From Arenibacter catalasegens (GTDB lineage Bacteria; Bacteroidota; Bacteroidia; Flavobacteriales; Flavobacteriaceae), in NCBI RefSeq assembly GCF_002909235.1, contig NZ_PHQQ01000012.1, positions 1 to 64,000 on the forward strand: DNA of 64,000 nt, written 5' to 3'. Below the pieces are notes generated by a model. That model ran no database searches and was not told where the DNA came from. It saw nothing but the letters and a program-made list of their open reading frames with translations. Of this stretch, positions 4,356 through 27,170 are shown piece after piece (the first letter of the stretch is position 1; every line of letters begins with the position of its first letter). The translations under genes and the position numbers were made by a program.

Positions 4356-4367
4356 GACATTTGGAAT

Positions 4368-4445
4368 TCACTGTTCACTGATTACTGTTCACTTCCAACT
4401 GCCCACTGCCAACTGTTCACTGATCACTGCCAATTGCAAACTTAC
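4368..4445. repeat. CACTGTTCAC/CCACTGCC degenerate tandem tract
   Basis: Irregular reiteration of ACTGTTCACTGATTACTG- and CCCACTGCCAACTG-like words just downstream of the argF' stop. It matches the right-hand halves of the composite tracts at 131-562. Confidence 0.55.
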
Positions 4446-19769: not shown

Positions 19770-20816
19770 TTACTTGTTTGCTTTTTCCAGTGTAAAGGAA
19801 AATTCCGAACCAATATCTAGAACGCTCTCCACATAAATTTTCTCATTATGGGCCTCTATAATATGTTTTACAATTGCCAATCCCAAGCCAGAACCACCTT
19901 CGGCCCTACTCCCACTTTTATCGACCCTGTAAAATCGTTCAAAAATTCGGGCAAGGTTTTGTTTGGAAATTCCCTCACCATTGTCGGTCACCCGGACAAT
20001 GGCCTTATTTTTTATTAAATTCTCTACACTTACTTCGGTTGTACCGTTCTGCTGCCCGTATTTAATGGAATTAACCAGTAAATTGGTGATTACTTGTTGT
20101 ATTTTTTCTTTATCCGCCTTTACATAGATTGGGGTTTTGTAATCCATATCAAAAGACAAGGTGATATTCTTTTTAGCCGCCTTCATTTCCAAAAGCTCAA
20201 AAACATTTTGGAAAAGTTCCAAAATATCAAAATCTTCTATCTCCAAATTCAGGTCTCCCACCTCCAATTTGGTAATTAGATCTAAGTCCTTAACAATATA
20301 AATAAGTCGCTCCACACCCTTACTGGCCCGTTGAAGATACTTTTTTCTTAGACTTTTATCCTCCATGGCACCATCCAACAATGTTAAAACATAGCCTTGG
20401 ACCGTAAACAGTGGTGTTTTTAATTCATGGGAAACGTTACCCAAAAAATCTTTTCTATATTCTTCACGGATTTTTAAGGTGTCTATTTCGATCTTTTTAT
20501 CCTTGGCAAACTTTTCTATTTCATCCGTCAAGGTCCGCATATCCGTAGTAATGGTCTTGGAAGCTAATGAGGTAGATTCCAGAAGGGCCACATCATTGTA
20601 AATGCGCTCAATTTTACGATAGATAAACTTTTCTACCCTCAATTGGACCACGAGGAAGGATATAATGGCGGAAGTTATTGCAATGACAACCAAGAGCAGC
20701 CAATCCATGGTACCACAGTACCACAAAAATATGCCCAAAACCGTAGTTAATAGAAATGAAATTAGAATTGCGGAACGAAGGGCGAACCGATACGACTTTT
20801 TTATCCTCGTGGTCAT
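19770..20816 (-). CDS. PhoR-like sensor histidine kinase
   Basis: 348 residues: two membrane segments at about 13-33 and 39-59 with almost no loop between them, a coiled stretch, the HisKA box GNVSHELKTP with phospho-acceptor His130, and HATPase blocks including DNGEGIS, FERFYRVDKS and GSGLGLAIVKHI. The absence of a periplasmic domain is the rule for PhoR-like kinases that sense through partners in the membrane. It overlaps the upstream response regulator by one base (TAATG), so the two form an operon. The adjacent Pho-box-like array supports a phosphate-type role but does not prove it. Confidence 0.88.
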   Translation of the reverse strand: MTTRIKKSYRFALRSAILISFLLTTVLGIFLWYCGTMDWLLLVVIAITSAIISFLVVQLRVEKFIYRKIERIYNDVALLESTSLASKTITTDMRTLTDEIEKFAKDKKIEIDTLKIREEYRKDFLGNVSHELKTPLFTVQGYVLTLLDGAMEDKSLRKKYLQRASKGVERLIYIVKDLDLITKLEVGDLNLEIEDFDILELFQNVFELLEMKAAKKNITLSFDMDYKTPIYVKADKEKIQQVITNLLVNSIKYGQQNGTTEVSVENLIKNKAIVRVTDNGEGISKQNLARIFERFYRVDKSGSRAEGGSGLGLAIVKHIIEAHNEKIYVESVLDIGSEFSFTLEKANK

Positions 20817-21502
20817 TATAACACAAACTTATACCCGACCCCTTTCACGGTTTTAAAGTTATCGTCCCCAATTTTTTCACGAAGTTTCCTAATATGGACA
20901 TCTATGGTTCTGCCTCCTACAACGACCTCGTTGCCCCAAACCTTATCCAAGATTACTTCTCTTTTAAAAACTTTATTTGGTTTGGAAGTCAATAGCGCCA
21001 ATAATTCAAACTCTTTTCTAGGAAGAATAATTTCCTCTCCCCGATTAATAATTTTGTACTCCTCCCTATTTATTACAATTTCACCAACCTGAACGATATC
21101 CTCAACATCCTGCTCCTCTTTCTTGAGCCTTCTAAGCAAGGCTTTTACTTTGCTAACCAATACTTTTGGCTTAATAGGCTTTGTTATATAATCATCCGCT
21201 CCTGCATCAAATCCTGCCATTTGCGAATAGTCCTCTCCCCTTGCAGTAAGGAAAGTAATTAAAGTGTCTTCCAGACCTTCTGTTCTACGGATAATCCCAC
21301 AGGCTTCAATACCATCCATTTCGGGCATCATCACATCCAGAATAATCAAGTGTGGCTTTTTCTTTTTTGCCTTGGCAACTCCATCCGCACCATTCTTCGC
21401 AGTAAAAACCTCATATCCCTCAGCGGATAAATTGTAAGCTACAATTTCTAGAATATCCGGTTCATCATCAACCAAAAGTATCTTTATATCCTTTTTTTTC
21501 AT
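20816..21502 (-). CDS. PhoB/OmpR-family response regulator
   Basis: 228 residues. The receiver domain has acidic residues VDDEPD near 11-16 and the phosphorylation site Asp56 in ILDVMMPEMDG; the C-terminal winged helix carries KEFELLALL and GGRTIDVHIRKLREKIG, typical of OmpR/PhoB regulators that bind tandem direct repeats. Divergently transcribed from the lipoprotein/TonB receptor genes, with the phased TTAACA array between. It is the natural candidate to bind that array. Confidence 0.92.
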   Translation of the reverse strand: MKKKDIKILLVDDEPDILEIVAYNLSAEGYEVFTAKNGADGVAKAKKKKPHLIILDVMMPEMDGIEACGIIRRTEGLEDTLITFLTARGEDYSQMAGFDAGADDYITKPIKPKVLVSKVKALLRRLKKEEQDVEDIVQVGEIVINREEYKIINRGEEIILPRKEFELLALLTSKPNKVFKREVILDKVWGNEVVVGGRTIDVHIRKLREKIGDDNFKTVKGVGYKFVL

Positions 21503-21649
21503 GCCTTAATTTTTATGGTCCTTAAGCGGTCATCTTTAAACAGTGTCTTATTTGGAGTGTTACTATACTTTAAAATAAGCAATTCCAATACAATTTTTGA
21601 TCAAATACAACATGCAATTTAAACCTTAATATTTATTGGTTTTCCGCGT

Positions 21650-21657
21650 CAAAAGTA
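21650..21657 (-). promoter_or_regulatory. Candidate -7 element for the two-component operon
   Basis: Reads TACTTTTG on the minus strand (TAnnTTTG). The half-site array starts 27 bp upstream of it in the direction of transcription, a position suited to regulation of this promoter, although no -33 element is obvious. Confidence 0.3.
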
Positions 21658-21683
21658 AAGATAATACTATTACACGAAACCTC

Positions 21684-21774
21684 TTAACACCTATTTAATA
21701 TAGTAACATTTAGATAACATTAAGCCAACAAACTATTAATCTCAGGGTAACAGGACTTTTACAGTTGGGTAATT
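21684..21774 (+). promoter_or_regulatory. Phased array of TTAACA-like half sites (Pho-box-like operator)
   Basis: Half sites begin at 21684 (TTAACA), 21695 (TTAATA), 21703 (GTAACA), 21714 (ATAACA), 21725 (CCAACA), 21736 (TTAATC), 21747 (GTAACA), 21758 (TTTACA) and 21769 (GTAATT). From 21703 on every step is exactly 11 bp; the first two are 11 bp apart but offset by 3. Direct repeats with 11-bp spacing are the hallmark of PhoB/PhoP operators, and TTAACA is the Bacillus PhoP word. The array sits beside a PhoB-like regulator gene and just upstream of a candidate promoter. Confidence 0.6.
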
Positions 21775-21780
21775 AATTTG
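21774..21780 (+). promoter_or_regulatory. Candidate -7 element of the lipoprotein/TonB receptor genes
   Basis: TAATTTG, one base short of the TAnnTTTG consensus, immediately after the last half site of the array. A start of transcription a few bases on would give a leader of roughly 50 nt to the ATG at 21836. Confidence 0.35.
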
Positions 21781-21835
21781 CCATGTTTAAATAAAACAAG
21801 TGAACTCAAAAATGAAACCAAAAAATTCTGTTGAA

Positions 21836-23254
21836 ATGAAAAAACTTTTTTTATCCGCATTGGCCATAGGCGCCCTAGCATTTACATCTTGTAGTAACGA
21901 TGACGAACCACCAATAGCAGCTATTGTTGCTACCTGTAATGACGGAATTCAAAATCAAGGAGAAACCGAGGTTGATTGTGGAGGACCTAACTGTCAGCCT
22001 TGTTCCGTAGCTGTTGTTACCTGTAACGACGGAATTCAAAATGGAGATGAGACAGGAATAGACCTAGGAGGTTCTTGTGCTGAAATCATAACAGTATCTG
22101 GGGAAATAAGCGCTAACACTACATGGTCTGCTGACAATATATATGTATTGGCCGGTAAAGTGGTTATTGGTGTTGGAAAAACATTGACCATTGAGCCAGG
22201 CACCATTATAAAAGGCAAGCCAGGTTCTGGTTCATTGGCTTCTGCACTAATTGTACAAAGAGGTTCTACCATTATGGCCAACGGCACTGCCGAGAAGCCA
22301 ATTATATTCACTGCCGAGGCCGATAACATAGGCGTTGGACAATCAGCTGGAACCAATTTAGATCATAATCAGAGAGGACTTTGGGGTGGATTAATAGTTT
22401 TGGGAAGGGCTACAGGTTCTTTTAAAGGCGATGTTACCCAAGTGCAGATCGAAGGTATTCCTGCCGATGACATTTTTGGACTTTATGGCCCTGGTGATGC
22501 TTTGAACGATGATGACAATTCCGGGGAATTAGAGTTTATCTCCATTCGTCACGGTGGGGCTTTGATCGGTGAAGGAAATGAGATCAACGGACTTACCTTA
22601 GGTTCGGTAGGTCGTGGCACCAAGATTGAAAATATTGAAATTGTTGCCAATGTTGATGATGGTATAGAATTTTTTGGTGGCACTGTTAGTCCAAAGAATC
22701 TATTGGTATGGGCACAAGGTGATGATGCCTTGGATATTGACCAAGCATACTCTGGCACTATAGACAATGCGGTAGTAATTTCTGGTGAGGCCTCTGACCA
22801 TGCTTTTGAAATTGATGGTCCAGAAGGTTCTACAGAAGGCTCTTTTACACTTCAAAACGTTACTATTTTCGGAAGCGCAACAGCAACTGATGGTGAATAT
22901 GCAGATTACAGAAGTAACGCAATGGGGACAACCAAGAACATCTACGCCCTCGGATTCCAAGATGGAAAAGATGTGGAATTGGATGCCAACGATGTAGCCC
23001 AAAACTTCTTGGATGGCAAATTAACCTTTGAAGCTTGGCAAGTAGTTGGTTTTAACAACAGTATTTTTTCTGAAAAAGTTAAAAAGGATGATGCTGGAAA
23101 TGAAGTAGAATCTAAAATAATATTAAGCCCAACATTTACCGAAAGAGCTGCTGATTGGACTACCCAAGTTACCGCTGGTGCTCAGACAGTAGGTGCAGAC
23201 CTTACCGTATTTTCCTGGACATATGCAAGTGCCAAAGCAGGTTTAGGTTTCTAA
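21836..23254 (+). CDS. Surface lipoprotein with cysteine repeats and a beta-helix-like domain
   Basis: With the start at 21836 the protein has a lipoprotein signal peptide MKKLFLSALAIGALAFTSC followed by SNDDEPP; an acidic stretch after the lipidated cysteine is typical of Bacteroidota surface lipoproteins. An earlier ATG at 21800 would add 12 polar residues before the signal peptide and is less likely. Next come two imperfect CNDGIQN-type repeats (TCNDGIQNQGETEVDCGG and TCNDGIQNGDETGIDLGG), then a region of short beta-strand repeats (VVIGVGKTLTIEPGTIIKG, and many G-rich turns) suggesting a right-handed beta-helix. The TonB receptor gene follows after 93 bp, so it may act as its surface partner. 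Substrate unknown. Confidence 0.78.
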   Translation: MKKLFLSALAIGALAFTSCSNDDEPPIAAIVATCNDGIQNQGETEVDCGGPNCQPCSVAVVTCNDGIQNGDETGIDLGGSCAEIITVSGEISANTTWSADNIYVLAGKVVIGVGKTLTIEPGTIIKGKPGSGSLASALIVQRGSTIMANGTAEKPIIFTAEADNIGVGQSAGTNLDHNQRGLWGGLIVLGRATGSFKGDVTQVQIEGIPADDIFGLYGPGDALNDDDNSGELEFISIRHGGALIGEGNEINGLTLGSVGRGTKIENIEIVANVDDGIEFFGGTVSPKNLLVWAQGDDALDIDQAYSGTIDNAVVISGEASDHAFEIDGPEGSTEGSFTLQNVTIFGSATATDGEYADYRSNAMGTTKNIYALGFQDGKDVELDANDVAQNFLDGKLTFEAWQVVGFNNSIFSEKVKKDDAGNEVESKIILSPTFTERAADWTTQVTAGAQTVGADLTVFSWTYASAKAGLGF

Positions 23255-23347: not shown

Positions 23348-26176
23348 ATGAAAAACTCACTTAGACTTTCAACTTTCACTTTTTTTATTTTTCAATTCAT
23401 CTTTTCACAAACTGGCGAATTAACGGGATCATTGATCGATGCCGATTTTCAAGATCCTGTCCCTTTTGCCAACATTCTGGTAAAAGGCACCACTATAGGT
23501 ACCACCTCCGATTTTGATGGTAATTATAAGCTTAGCCTTGACGAAGGCAGCCACACCCTTTCCTTTTCCTTCCTAGGTTATAAAACCGTGGAAATTACCA
23601 ATGTTGTCATTAAGGCGAACGAGGTAACCAATGTAAATGTTACCATGGAGACCTTGGCGGAAGGCTTGGACGAAGTAGTGGTTTCCGTAAGTGTAAAGAA
23701 AAATACTGAAACCGCTGTTCTGGGTATCCAGAAAAAAGCTGTTAACCTATTGGATGGCCTATCTGCCGAAGCCTTCAAAAAAACGGGCTCCAGTGATGTG
23801 GCCAGTGCTATAAAATCTGTACCAGGCGTTTCGGTGCAAGGGGGAAAATATGTTTATGTTAGGGGTCTGGGCGATCGCTATACCAAATCTATTTTAAACG
23901 GGGTGGACATACCTGGTCTGGACCCAGATAGAAACACTATACAGTTGGACATTTTTCCTACCAATATTATCGACAATATCCTAGTCCTTAAATCTGCTTC
24001 TGCCGATCTGCCTGCAGATTTTACGGGGGGTATCGTGAACATCGTTACCAAGGATTACCCCACTAAAAAAGAACACAGTATTTCTCTTAGTGGTAGTTAT
24101 AATCCAGATATGCACTTTAATGAAAACTACTTGGATTATAAAGGCAGTTCTACAGATTTCCTAGGGTTTGACAACGGCAACCGAAGCGTTCCCATTAATC
24201 GGAATCAGGAAATTCCAAACACCTTTGAATACAATCCATTATTGACAGCGATAACCAAAAAGTTTAATCCGGTGCTATCGGCCATGAAAACCAATAGTGT
24301 TATGGACTACAGCTTTGGATTCACCACTGGCAATCAATACAATGTGGGCGAAGGTGAAAACAGATTGGGGTTTTTAGCTTCTGTTTCTTATAAAAACACC
24401 ACTGCTTTTTACGAAGGGGCAGAGAACAACTTCTTCCGAAGAAATTCGGACACTTCTGTTTTTGAATTGGAAACGGATAGGACCCAAACTGGAGATTTAG
24501 GCAGAAATAACGTTTTGGTAAGTGGATTATTGGGGACTTCCTTTAAAACTCAAAAATCCAAATACAAACTAAATATCCTTCATCTTCAGAACGGGGAATC
24601 TACGGCAGGTTATTTTAGCCAGACCCTTAACTTTTCCGATTTTGTAAATTTCTCTAAAGACAACTTGGAATACACACAACGCTCCATATCCAATGTATTG
24701 TTATCCGGAACACATTCCAGCGAAGATGCGTCATGGACTACGGAATGGGCCCTTTCTCCTACCATGTCCAAAATTCAGGACAAGGACATTAGAACAACTT
24801 CCTTTAGGGTAGAGGACGGAGTTTACTCCATTCCACAGAATAACCAGCCAAAAAGGATTTGGAGAGATTTGGAGGAGATCAATGCCGTTGCCAAACTAGA
24901 TCTTACCAAAAGATATGAATTTTTGGAAAAAGATGCCAAATTAAAATTTGGAGCCTATAGCTCGTACAAGACTAGGGACTTTAGCATTTTAAATTTTGAA
25001 ATAGAGAACAATGCCCAAACTACAAAGTTCAATGGTGTCGCAGACAACATCCTCTTGGATGAAAACTTGTGGACGGTAAACAACAATTCAGGCTCTTACA
25101 TTGACCCGGACATTACTATAGCGGAACCCGCCAATACGTTTAAAGCGGTACAACAAAATATTGCAGGCTACGTATCCAATGAATTTAAATTGGGTCAAAA
25201 ATTGCGTACCATTCTTGGCTTAAGGGTAGAAAAGTTTGAATCCCGATATACTGGAGAAGATAACAAGGATATTAATGATTCACAAAAAGTCATTTATGAT
25301 AACGAAACCATTATAGATAAGTTCGACCTTTTTCCAACCGCCAATTTAATTTATGAATTAACCGAAGAGGTGAACCTAAGGGGATCATTTTCCAGGACTA
25401 CGGCAAGGCCTTCTTTTAAAGAAGCTTCCATTGCCAAGATTTTTGACCCCTTATCCAACAATACCTTCATCGGTAATATTAATTTGGACCCCACCTACAT
25501 TAATAATTTCGATTTTAGGGTGGAATGGTTCGGTGACAGTGCAGAGATGATAGCATTGAGTAGCTTTTATAAAAAGTTTACCGACCCCATAGAACTTACT
25601 TACTTTGAGTCCTCCTCGGATAACTTTACCCCTCAAAACCTAGGTGATGCCGATGTGATTGGATTGGAGTTTGAATTAAGGAAGAATTTAGGTTTCATCG
25701 CAGAGCCGCTTTCCAATTTTAGCTTTACTGTAAATACCTCGATTATAAAATCGACCCAAATTTATAGCGAAAGTGAGCGCAATCTTAGATTGCTTGGACT
25801 TAGGGACGGAGAAACCTTGGGCAAGGACAGAGAGCTACAGGGACAGTCACCTTTCCTTATCAATTCGGGATTAAATTACGAGGGAGTAGAAAACGGCATC
25901 CAAATGGGTATGAACTACAATGTGCAGGGTAAAACATTGCAGGTGGTAGGTAACGGTTTTGTACCGGACGTTTACACCATGCCCTTTCACAATTTAAACT
26001 TCAACCTCTCCAAAAGTTTTGGCGAAAATCAAAATCAGAGCGTAAGTTTTAAAATAAGCAATCTTTTAGATGATGATGTTGAAAGTGAATATGAATCTTA
26101 CAAAGCCCAAAATCAAACCTTCTCCAAAAGAAGTCCGGGCAAGTCATTCTCCTTGGGCTATAATTTAAAATTCTAA
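23348..26176 (+). CDS. TonB-dependent outer-membrane receptor
   Basis: 942 residues: signal peptide ending near FIFSQT, a carboxypeptidase-regulatory-like domain (about 25-110; VPFANILVKGTTIGT, FDGNYKLSL), a plug domain with SVPGVSVQGGKYVYVRGLGDRY, then a long beta-barrel ending in aromatic NLKF. It imports an unknown ligand across the outer membrane using energy from TonB. It sits downstream of the surface lipoprotein and shares the regulatory region with the Pho-like two-component system, so a phosphorus-containing ligand or a phosphate-starvation role is a reasonable guess. It is not a SusC/SusD pair: the lipoprotein lies upstream and lacks SusD features. Confidence 0.88.
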   Translation: MKNSLRLSTFTFFIFQFIFSQTGELTGSLIDADFQDPVPFANILVKGTTIGTTSDFDGNYKLSLDEGSHTLSFSFLGYKTVEITNVVIKANEVTNVNVTMETLAEGLDEVVVSVSVKKNTETAVLGIQKKAVNLLDGLSAEAFKKTGSSDVASAIKSVPGVSVQGGKYVYVRGLGDRYTKSILNGVDIPGLDPDRNTIQLDIFPTNIIDNILVLKSASADLPADFTGGIVNIVTKDYPTKKEHSISLSGSYNPDMHFNENYLDYKGSSTDFLGFDNGNRSVPINRNQEIPNTFEYNPLLTAITKKFNPVLSAMKTNSVMDYSFGFTTGNQYNVGEGENRLGFLASVSYKNTTAFYEGAENNFFRRNSDTSVFELETDRTQTGDLGRNNVLVSGLLGTSFKTQKSKYKLNILHLQNGESTAGYFSQTLNFSDFVNFSKDNLEYTQRSISNVLLSGTHSSEDASWTTEWALSPTMSKIQDKDIRTTSFRVEDGVYSIPQNNQPKRIWRDLEEINAVAKLDLTKRYEFLEKDAKLKFGAYSSYKTRDFSILNFEIENNAQTTKFNGVADNILLDENLWTVNNNSGSYIDPDITIAEPANTFKAVQQNIAGYVSNEFKLGQKLRTILGLRVEKFESRYTGEDNKDINDSQKVIYDNETIIDKFDLFPTANLIYELTEEVNLRGSFSRTTARPSFKEASIAKIFDPLSNNTFIGNINLDPTYINNFDFRVEWFGDSAEMIALSSFYKKFTDPIELTYFESSSDNFTPQNLGDADVIGLEFELRKNLGFIAEPLSNFSFTVNTSIIKSTQIYSESERNLRLLGLRDGETLGKDRELQGQSPFLINSGLNYEGVENGIQMGMNYNVQGKTLQVVGNGFVPDVYTMPFHNLNFNLSKSFGENQNQSVSFKISNLLDDDVESEYESYKAQNQTFSKRSPGKSFSLGYNLKF

Positions 26177-26319: not shown

Positions 26320-26346
26320 GGTATATTATTTGTTGTTATAGTGTCT

Positions 26347-26664
26347 ATGAAGCAACTTTACTTAGTTATAGCCTTACTTTTTATCTCGTTTTCCTATGGA
26401 CAGGATTCCAAAGGAAATAATGGGAGTGGGGAAATTGCTGGTTTTAAAATATATCCCAATCCGGTTACCAATGGCAGGGTATATATTAGCACTACCTTAA
26501 ACGCCCCAAAACAAATTCTAATATTTGATATTTTTGGATCTCAAGTTTTGGAAACAACAATTATAGGTTCGGAATTAAATGTCAGTGATTTGGATGCCGG
26601 GGTCTATATGTTAAGGGTAAATGAAAAAAACAAAATAGCTACACGCAAGCTAATTGTTAAATAG
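26347..26664 (+). CDS. Mini-protein: signal peptide plus T9SS type A sorting domain (first)
   Basis: With the ATG at 26347 (a GTG lies two codons earlier) the protein has 105 residues: a signal peptide MKQLYLVIALLFISFSYGQ, about 15 polar residues, then a complete type IX sorting domain from FKIYPNPVTNGRVYIS through GVYMLRVNE to RKLIVK. Nothing is left that could be cargo. The C-terminal domain is recognised by the T9SS machinery and normally removed at the surface. A paralogue with about half its residues identical in this domain lies 182 bp downstream. Function unknown. Confidence 0.85.
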   Translation: MKQLYLVIALLFISFSYGQDSKGNNGSGEIAGFKIYPNPVTNGRVYISTTLNAPKQILIFDIFGSQVLETTIIGSELNVSDLDAGVYMLRVNEKNKIATRKLIVK

Positions 26665-26846: not shown

Positions 26847-27170
26847 ATGAAAATATTTTACACCCTACTGTTCATGGTATTTTCTATTGCCGTTTCTGCA
26901 CAGGAATTTGTTGAAGAACCTGTGGACAGAACTGCCCAGTCCAATACATTTAAATTATATCCCAATCCGGCCTATCAGGAGGTGGTGTATATTACCACCA
27001 AACTTAACGGAGTAAAGGATGTAATAATCTATGATGTTTTTGGCACTGTAGTCTTAGAAGACCGTATTACCACAAGTCTTTTAAACATATCCAAATTAGC
27101 CCCTGGGGTATATGTTCTTCAAATTATAGAAAACAGGGTCACGATGACCAGGAAGTTGGTGGTAAAATAA
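26847..27170 (+). CDS. Mini-protein: signal peptide plus T9SS type A sorting domain (second)
   Basis: 107 residues. A signal peptide MKIFYTLLFMVFSIAVSAQ is followed by a short acidic linker (EEPVDRTAQSN) and a type IX sorting domain, FKLYPNPAYQEVVYITT through GVYVLQIIEN to RKLVVK. I count 37 of 73 identical positions with the sorting domain of the preceding gene. The pair looks like an old tandem duplication with separate promoters. It could be an adhesin-like surface peptide, a decoy or maturation factor for the sorting machinery, or the remnant of a larger cargo gene; sequence alone does not decide. Confidence 0.85.
   Translation: MKIFYTLLFMVFSIAVSAQEFVEEPVDRTAQSNTFKLYPNPAYQEVVYITTKLNGVKDVIIYDVFGTVVLEDRITTSLLNISKLAPGVYVLQIIENRVTMTRKLVVK

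Follow-up and report, generated by a model that had tools for sequence, protein, structure and literature searches.

Which genes are served by the repeated TTAACA-like words that lie between a PhoB/PhoR-type gene pair and a surface uptake locus in Arenibacter catalasegens, and which protein reads them? The window, by which we mean the whole stretch of 64,000 nucleotides analyzed (positions 1–64,000 of contig NZ_PHQQ01000012.1, from a genome of 5.45 Mb), holds these words in the region 21503–21835, which parts phoB-like and phoR-like genes from divergent genes for a lipoprotein and a TonB receptor. The sequence, geometry, and conservation of the array and its linkage to phosphate genes are set out below; the array is very probably a flavobacterial PHO-box-type operator through which the PhoB-like regulator would activate the lipoprotein/TonB-receptor operon upon phosphate starvation. 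The genes are as follows.

20816..21502, minus strand: PhoB-like response regulator, 228 aa (Response_reg, Trans_reg_C)
19770..20816, minus strand: PhoR-like histidine kinase, 348 aa (HisKA, HATPase_c)
21836..23254, plus strand: lipoprotein gene, first of the operon, with a signal and lipobox-like start as judged by eye
23348..26176, plus strand: TonB-dependent receptor, 942 aa (CarbopepD_reg_2, Plug, TonB_dep_Rec_b-barrel)

An earlier reading of the sequence alone had measured the divergent region at 333 bp, consistent with a lipoprotein start codon at 21836; alternative in-frame starts are ATG at 21812 and GTG at 21800. In the regulator, both the receiver (Response_reg) and the winged-helix output domain (Trans_reg_C) are present, and its nearest relatives are found in Flagellimonas, Maribacter, and other Flavobacteriaceae. 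It falls below the curated PhoB cut-offs (212.1 versus 296.2 bits for TIGR02154; 205.3 versus 270 bits for NF053854) and is therefore named PhoB-like here, although these two families are nonetheless its top two among 97 NCBIfam families. PnpS and PhoR are within the three best NCBIfam models for the kinase, all three below cut-off. A Pfam scan assigned the lipoprotein to no family, and a search for its paralogues in the A. catalasegens genome returned only a partial match; its homologues adjoin the receptor in related loci. Two tandem 107-aa genes, at 26341–26664 and 26847–27170, encode a Por_Secre_tail (type IX sorting) domain and little else. Elsewhere in the window, positions 4367–4442 hold TTCACTG-like units of 7 bp in an imperfect array, for which periods of 7, 14, 21, and 28 are obtained.

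The repeat array and the two promoter elements beside it are listed below, with offsets counted from the TTTG of the receptor-operon −7 element and mean matches to TTAACA taken over 90 sites in other genomes (defined further on).

21684..21700, plus strand: distal out-of-phase pair, TTAACA (21684) and TTAATA (21695); columns −93 to −78 conserved (n = 27, window included)
21703..21719, plus strand: distal pair 11 bp apart, GTAACA (21703) and ATAACA (21714); offsets −74 and −63
21725..21730, plus strand: degenerate middle slot, CCAACA; offset −52, mean 2.99/6
21736..21763, plus strand: proximal triple, TTAATC (21736), GTAACA (21747), and TTTACA (21758); offsets −41, −30, and −19
21773..21780, plus strand: receptor-operon −7 element, TTAATTTG, then C; TTTG at fixed spacing
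21650..21657, minus strand: candidate phoB −7 element, TACTTTTG, which fits TAnnTTTG and is divergent from the array

Nine half sites had been proposed from the sequence alone. All nine 6-mers are present where they were placed, matching TTAACA at 6, 5, 5, 5, 4, 4, 5, 5, and 3 of 6 positions in order from 21684 to 21769, but only five of them (21703, 21714, 21736, 21747, and 21758) are firm, and the other four are reclassified. The word at 21769 is not a repeat unit; it falls within the −7 region. The word at 21725 occupies a slot that is degenerate in relatives. The words at 21684 and 21695 are conserved and 11 bp apart but offset by 8 bp from the phase of the other units; relatives read TTTAAT at the equivalent of 21694–21699, which is the conserved form of the 21695 word. 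The core layout is three units, a gap, and two units at 11-bp steps, the last unit starting 19 bp before TTTGC (21777), and the array thereby repeats an 11-bp unit directly and more than once, as is typical of a PHO box. The same profile is seen over the 90 sites, with mean matches of 4.51, 4.61, and 4.44 of 6 at −41, −30, and −19, means of 4.58/6 at −74 and 4.29/6 at −63, and weaker peaks for the out-of-phase pair at offsets 93 (3.18/6) and 82 (2.82/6).

That the array ends at a candidate −7 element stands, with the qualification that the element, 9 bp past the last half site, overlaps the word at 21769. The consensus for sigma-A of F. psychrophilum is TAnnTTTG (PMC9723704). TTAATTTG has T rather than A at the second position and so lacks the TA of the housekeeping element. 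Across the 90 sites the two TA positions read TT in 65, GT in 20, CA in 4, CT in 1, and TA in 0, and in eight PstS sites selected by TTTG and half sites alone they read GT in seven and TT in one. The last unit is fixed at 19 bp before TTTG, and such a constant placement next to the core promoter element is a further trait of PHO boxes. The geometry is not fully independent, since the model that helped to select the 90 sites (93 less the 3 whose match ends without a TTTG) contains the −7 columns and the spacing.

Comparison with relatives was made at 80 phoB loci, of which 79 were tested (L050 was omitted because its contig begins at the gene). Thirty of the 79, chosen by eye, have a receptor or lipoprotein homologue divergent to phoB; some of the 49 others carry receptor or lipoprotein genes farther off. 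Among ten steps compared, 11 bp is strictly the best in 26/30 receptor loci versus 16/49 others, counts over relatives that share descent and are uncorrected for it. The periodic words are kept in the related genomes, in base identity as well as in phase, as the sequence-only reading would require. Anchored on TTTGC, the 25 loci used to build a model align nearly without gaps, with one extra column (L051). They show half sites at five offsets (−19, −30, −41, −63, and −74), a degenerate slot at −52 between the two groups, and TTAAC...TTTAAT at −93/−83. Five loci (L047, L052, L053, L059, and L063) were kept out of the model for a different register or a spacing of 20; the 27-sequence column set includes the wrongly anchored L047 as well as the window. 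The window, itself outside the training set, scores 29.2 with the proximal matrix and 37.7 with the distal matrix (0/100 shuffles).

The most serious alternative is that the array is mainly an autoregulatory site of phoB and that the receptor operon is merely its neighbor, which we consider unlikely. Two blocks were scored separately with leave-one-out matrices (p ≤0.01, 100 shuffles). The distal block is found in 22/30 receptor loci and 14/49 others, so that it also occurs upstream of phoB genes without a divergent receptor, which speaks for a phoB site. In the same direction, phoB is among the genes of F. johnsoniae that low phosphate induces (PMC8115612), and PhoP of R. anatipestifer binds upstream of its own operon (PMC9603813). 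The proximal block, by contrast, is found with its −7 element in 29/30 receptor loci versus 3/49 others, and after removal of the −7 columns in 26/30 versus 10/49. The repeats also face away from phoB, and no half site better than 2/6 lies at offsets 19–63 before the phoB TTTG; ordinary autoregulation in that direction is accordingly not claimed. In 11 of 40 rows, the window included, the exact phoB −7 box precedes the first distal TAACA by 54–56 bp; in the remaining rows it was not found at that place. The suggestion that the array also autoregulates the two-component genes thus keeps the distal block in its favor and has the orientation of the repeats and a phoB −7 element without half sites against it; it is plausible but weaker, and the distal units would have a secondary action on phoB.

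In some receptor-less relatives, the gene immediately divergent to phoB encodes a small protein that resembles the two 107-aa Por_Secre_tail proteins in size and start, which makes the receptor pair look like a module that was inserted or lost.

Genome searches point the same way as the proximal block. The model, built from sequence only on the 25 relatives' loci with the window excluded, matches the window site at 60.9 bits (E 5.7e-16, by a rough calibration), whereas the next match in the 5.45-Mb genome has an E of 0.196. Among 149 Flavobacteriaceae genomes, with 27 candidates scored per genome, 129 (A. catalasegens included) have a match at E ≤0.01 and 20 have none at that threshold. We sorted 93 sites in other genomes, comprising the 29 best and 64 picked among the matches listed, by the gene that follows, using reference proteins that came partly from those same sites; by this sorting, 89 of the 93 precede a gene for a TonB receptor, lipoprotein, small CarboxypepD-like protein, metallophosphoesterase, PstS, or Porin_O_P. 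The breakdown is TonB receptor 51, lipoprotein 21, small CarboxypepD-like 11 (followed by Porin_O_P and/or PHO4 in seven and by a receptor in four), metallophosphoesterase 4, pstS 1, Porin_O_P plus pstS 1, and other 4. The last class consists of two unrecognized genes, one small type-IX-tail protein adjoining phoB, and one site that actually precedes a lipoprotein on the opposite strand (L193). Of ten representatives scanned, nine have a Pfam family (PBP_like_2, Porin_O_P, PHO4, Metallophos/Metallophos_2, and CarbopepD_reg_2); the tenth, a lipoprotein, is without one.

Eight of the 29 best sites have the array and the receptor/lipoprotein genes next to an HD-domain gene, which we take to be dgt-like, instead of phoB. 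Among all 93 sites, those beside the HD-domain gene precede receptor/lipoprotein genes in 22 cases and the small CarboxypepD-like gene in nine. Because the array stays with the receptor operon away from phoB, it goes with that operon and is probably not chiefly a phoB site.

Several individual sites deserve description. In L136–L139, a small CarboxypepD-like gene and a TonB receptor gene are each preceded by an array, the two arrays being ~600–730 bp apart; it looks as though the promoter had been duplicated along with the N-terminal domain of the receptor. The L185 match has good half sites and a TTTG, with no recognized gene behind it. At the L148 match (near 398669–398728 of its contig), the ORFs that follow look by eye like genes for a FecR-type regulator and a sigma factor. 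Low phosphate induces ECF sigma and FecR-like genes in F. johnsoniae (PMC8115612), and there may be a regulatory link.

A second alternative concerns the protein and not the promoter. One-turn tandem repeats suit the wider OmpR/PhoB family, and a different OmpR-family regulator, for example one with an ArcA-like site, might bind the array; the motif of Riemerella PhoP is described as ArcA-like (PMC9603813). We regard this as less likely still than a phoB site, as phosphate transport, porin, and metallophosphoesterase genes are among those that such sites precede in the family, and the site in the window adjoins a PhoB/PhoR-like pair.

The connection to phosphate was also approached from the genes. 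Upstream of 8 of 12 strong PstS-family genes, TTAACA-like 11-bp units occur in the same direction (0/100 shuffles each), and in those eight the last unit is always TTAACA, 19 bp before TTTG. The gene after pstS is Porin_O_P in 3/3 cases scanned with Pfam. The other four PstS genes failed, one having a weak site 27 bp before the pstS start (p 0.10) and three having nothing. This test is less circular than the model sites, with two of its eight genomes already met via the model. Across the family, then, the array has the regulon of downstream phosphate-acquisition genes that is characteristic of a PHO box.

In A. catalasegens itself, only two places match two units plus TTTGC when one mismatch is allowed: the array in the window and C2:69417–69450, 22 bp before a Porin_O_P gene with a PHO4 permease gene next (C2:66637–69450, minus strand). 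The reversed control also gives two matches, so what counts is which genes follow the sites, not how many sites there are. A further 17 weaker model matches in this genome (E 0.196–9.71) were set aside as noise, except for two at phosphate-type genes: the Porin_O_P site at C2:69417, which the exact pattern confirms, and a metallophosphoesterase site at C82:19854, which is weak and of inexact spacing by eye. No PstS family member was found in the genome by a search that was positive in 13/14 control genomes. The PhoX family was likewise not found, but its control search was positive in just 2/14 genomes, so that this negative tells less than the one for PstS.

Periodicity by itself was assessed by shuffling, as the sequence-only reading had proposed. 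In 2000 dinucleotide-preserving shuffles of a 309-bp region, runs of six or seven words at 11-bp steps occurred in none, runs of five or nine at a frequency of 0.0005, of four at 0.015, and of three at 0.052, these being p values per region for a region picked from a 64-kb scan. Runs of three or four words are not impressive. When any step from 9 to 13 was allowed (500 shuffles), the frequencies were 0 for at least six words, 0.006 for five, and 0.062 for four. A plain four-unit, three-mismatch pattern was rejected as proof, giving five genome matches (two overlapping at the array) versus three in the reversed control; with plain counts this near to control, the weight rests on the relatives. 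That the array is a product of chance, or a merely structural AT-rich periodicity, deserves almost no credence: the intergenic DNA is AT-rich, short runs are not unusual in shuffles, and plain pattern counts are close to control (5 versus 3; 2 versus 2), but six units are never reached by shuffling and relatives keep the bases besides the phase.

The preferred reading, a PHO-box-type operator of the receptor operon, can be cast as a mechanism. Under phosphate scarcity, the neighboring PhoR-like kinase would phosphorylate the PhoB-like regulator, which would bind the TTAACA half sites head to tail, about one helical turn (11 bp) apart. Because the last unit lies 19 bp before the TTTG of a non-consensus −7 element, the regulator may occupy the position of the upstream promoter element; taking the place of that element, it would start transcription of the lipoprotein/TonB-receptor genes. 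The PhoB-like protein is the presumed binder, phosphate the presumed signal in A. catalasegens, and activation the presumed effect. The original proposal, in which an operator of this length drives a surface system for phosphate starvation, is supported by in-register conservation, by the sites at phosphate genes, and by low-phosphate induction in F. johnsoniae. More tentatively, and with somewhat less than even confidence, such sites could represent a distinct class of activator-dependent Pho promoters with a [T/G]TnnTTTGC −7 element, at which about five PhoB molecules in a three-gap-two arrangement replace the upstream element; the module would move from one genomic location to another along with the receptor, and where it adjoins phoB its distal half would also serve that gene.

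This reading yields a concrete, searchable definition of a phosphate operator for a large family of bacteria from marine and soil habitats, and it ties a TonB receptor and a lipoprotein of unknown cargo to phosphate starvation. It also aids prediction of Pho regulons in genomes in which searches for PstS and PhoX found none, as here.

A close known counterpart is the PhoBR locus of F. johnsoniae, PUSIV (Fjoh_0543–0546), which like the window contains PhoR, PhoB, a TonB receptor, and a surface lipoprotein and is induced by low phosphate in that species (PMC8115612). We matched the two by gene content and neighborhood, which makes F. johnsoniae PhoB a presumed orthologue of the PhoB-like regulator; the gene order is receptor then lipoprotein in PUSIV and the reverse in the window. 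Upon phosphate depletion, the reported values are 8.02 for the receptor, 9.91 for the lipoprotein, 3.06 for phoB, and 0.76 for phoR, in a column headed FC where the text gives thresholds as log2FC; the porin of the locus did not rise (−1.3, p 0.25), and the metallophosphoesterase PlcP, encoded elsewhere in the genome, reached 8.59 (PMC8115612). The words “promoter,” “motif,” and “Pho box” are absent from the main text of that paper.

Riemerella belongs to the Flavobacteriales, the same order as A. catalasegens. DAP-seq of R. anatipestifer PhoP, a presumed orthologue of the PhoB-like regulator, gave 583 peaks with a motif core of TTTAACA, and in band shifts the protein bound its own promoter and a TonB receptor promoter, shifting the compared promoters whether phosphorylated or not (PMC9603813). 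The sites thus resemble the window in their core and in having a TonB receptor among the shifted promoters; unlike the window, they come with no 11-bp arrays or promoter spacing in the available sections of the report, which presents PhoP as a regulator of virulence and aerotolerance (PMC9603813). Deletion of phoPR raised pstS eightfold (PMC5399024), a poor fit to simple activation. In B. fragilis, PhoB binds the pstC promoter, and the word “motif” is absent from the available text of that report (PMC3547664). A search of literature listings found no paper describing a flavobacterial operator array of such geometry.

The kind of operator is already known, while its flavobacterial geometry appears to be undescribed in the literature searched. 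In PHO boxes, the direct repeats have units of 11 nt whose words differ between species, and Streptomyces has complex operators of this sort (PMC4415409). With those of E. coli, B. subtilis, and Streptomyces, the window shares two or more 11-nt direct repeats before phosphate genes, and multi-unit operators are known there as well (PMC4415409); the parallel drawn earlier to Bacillus PhoP holds as a likeness only. In the window the word is TTAACA/GTAACA and not CTGTCAT or GTTCACC, and the units follow a three-gap-two layout with a 19-bp rule to a Bacteroidetes-type −7 element.
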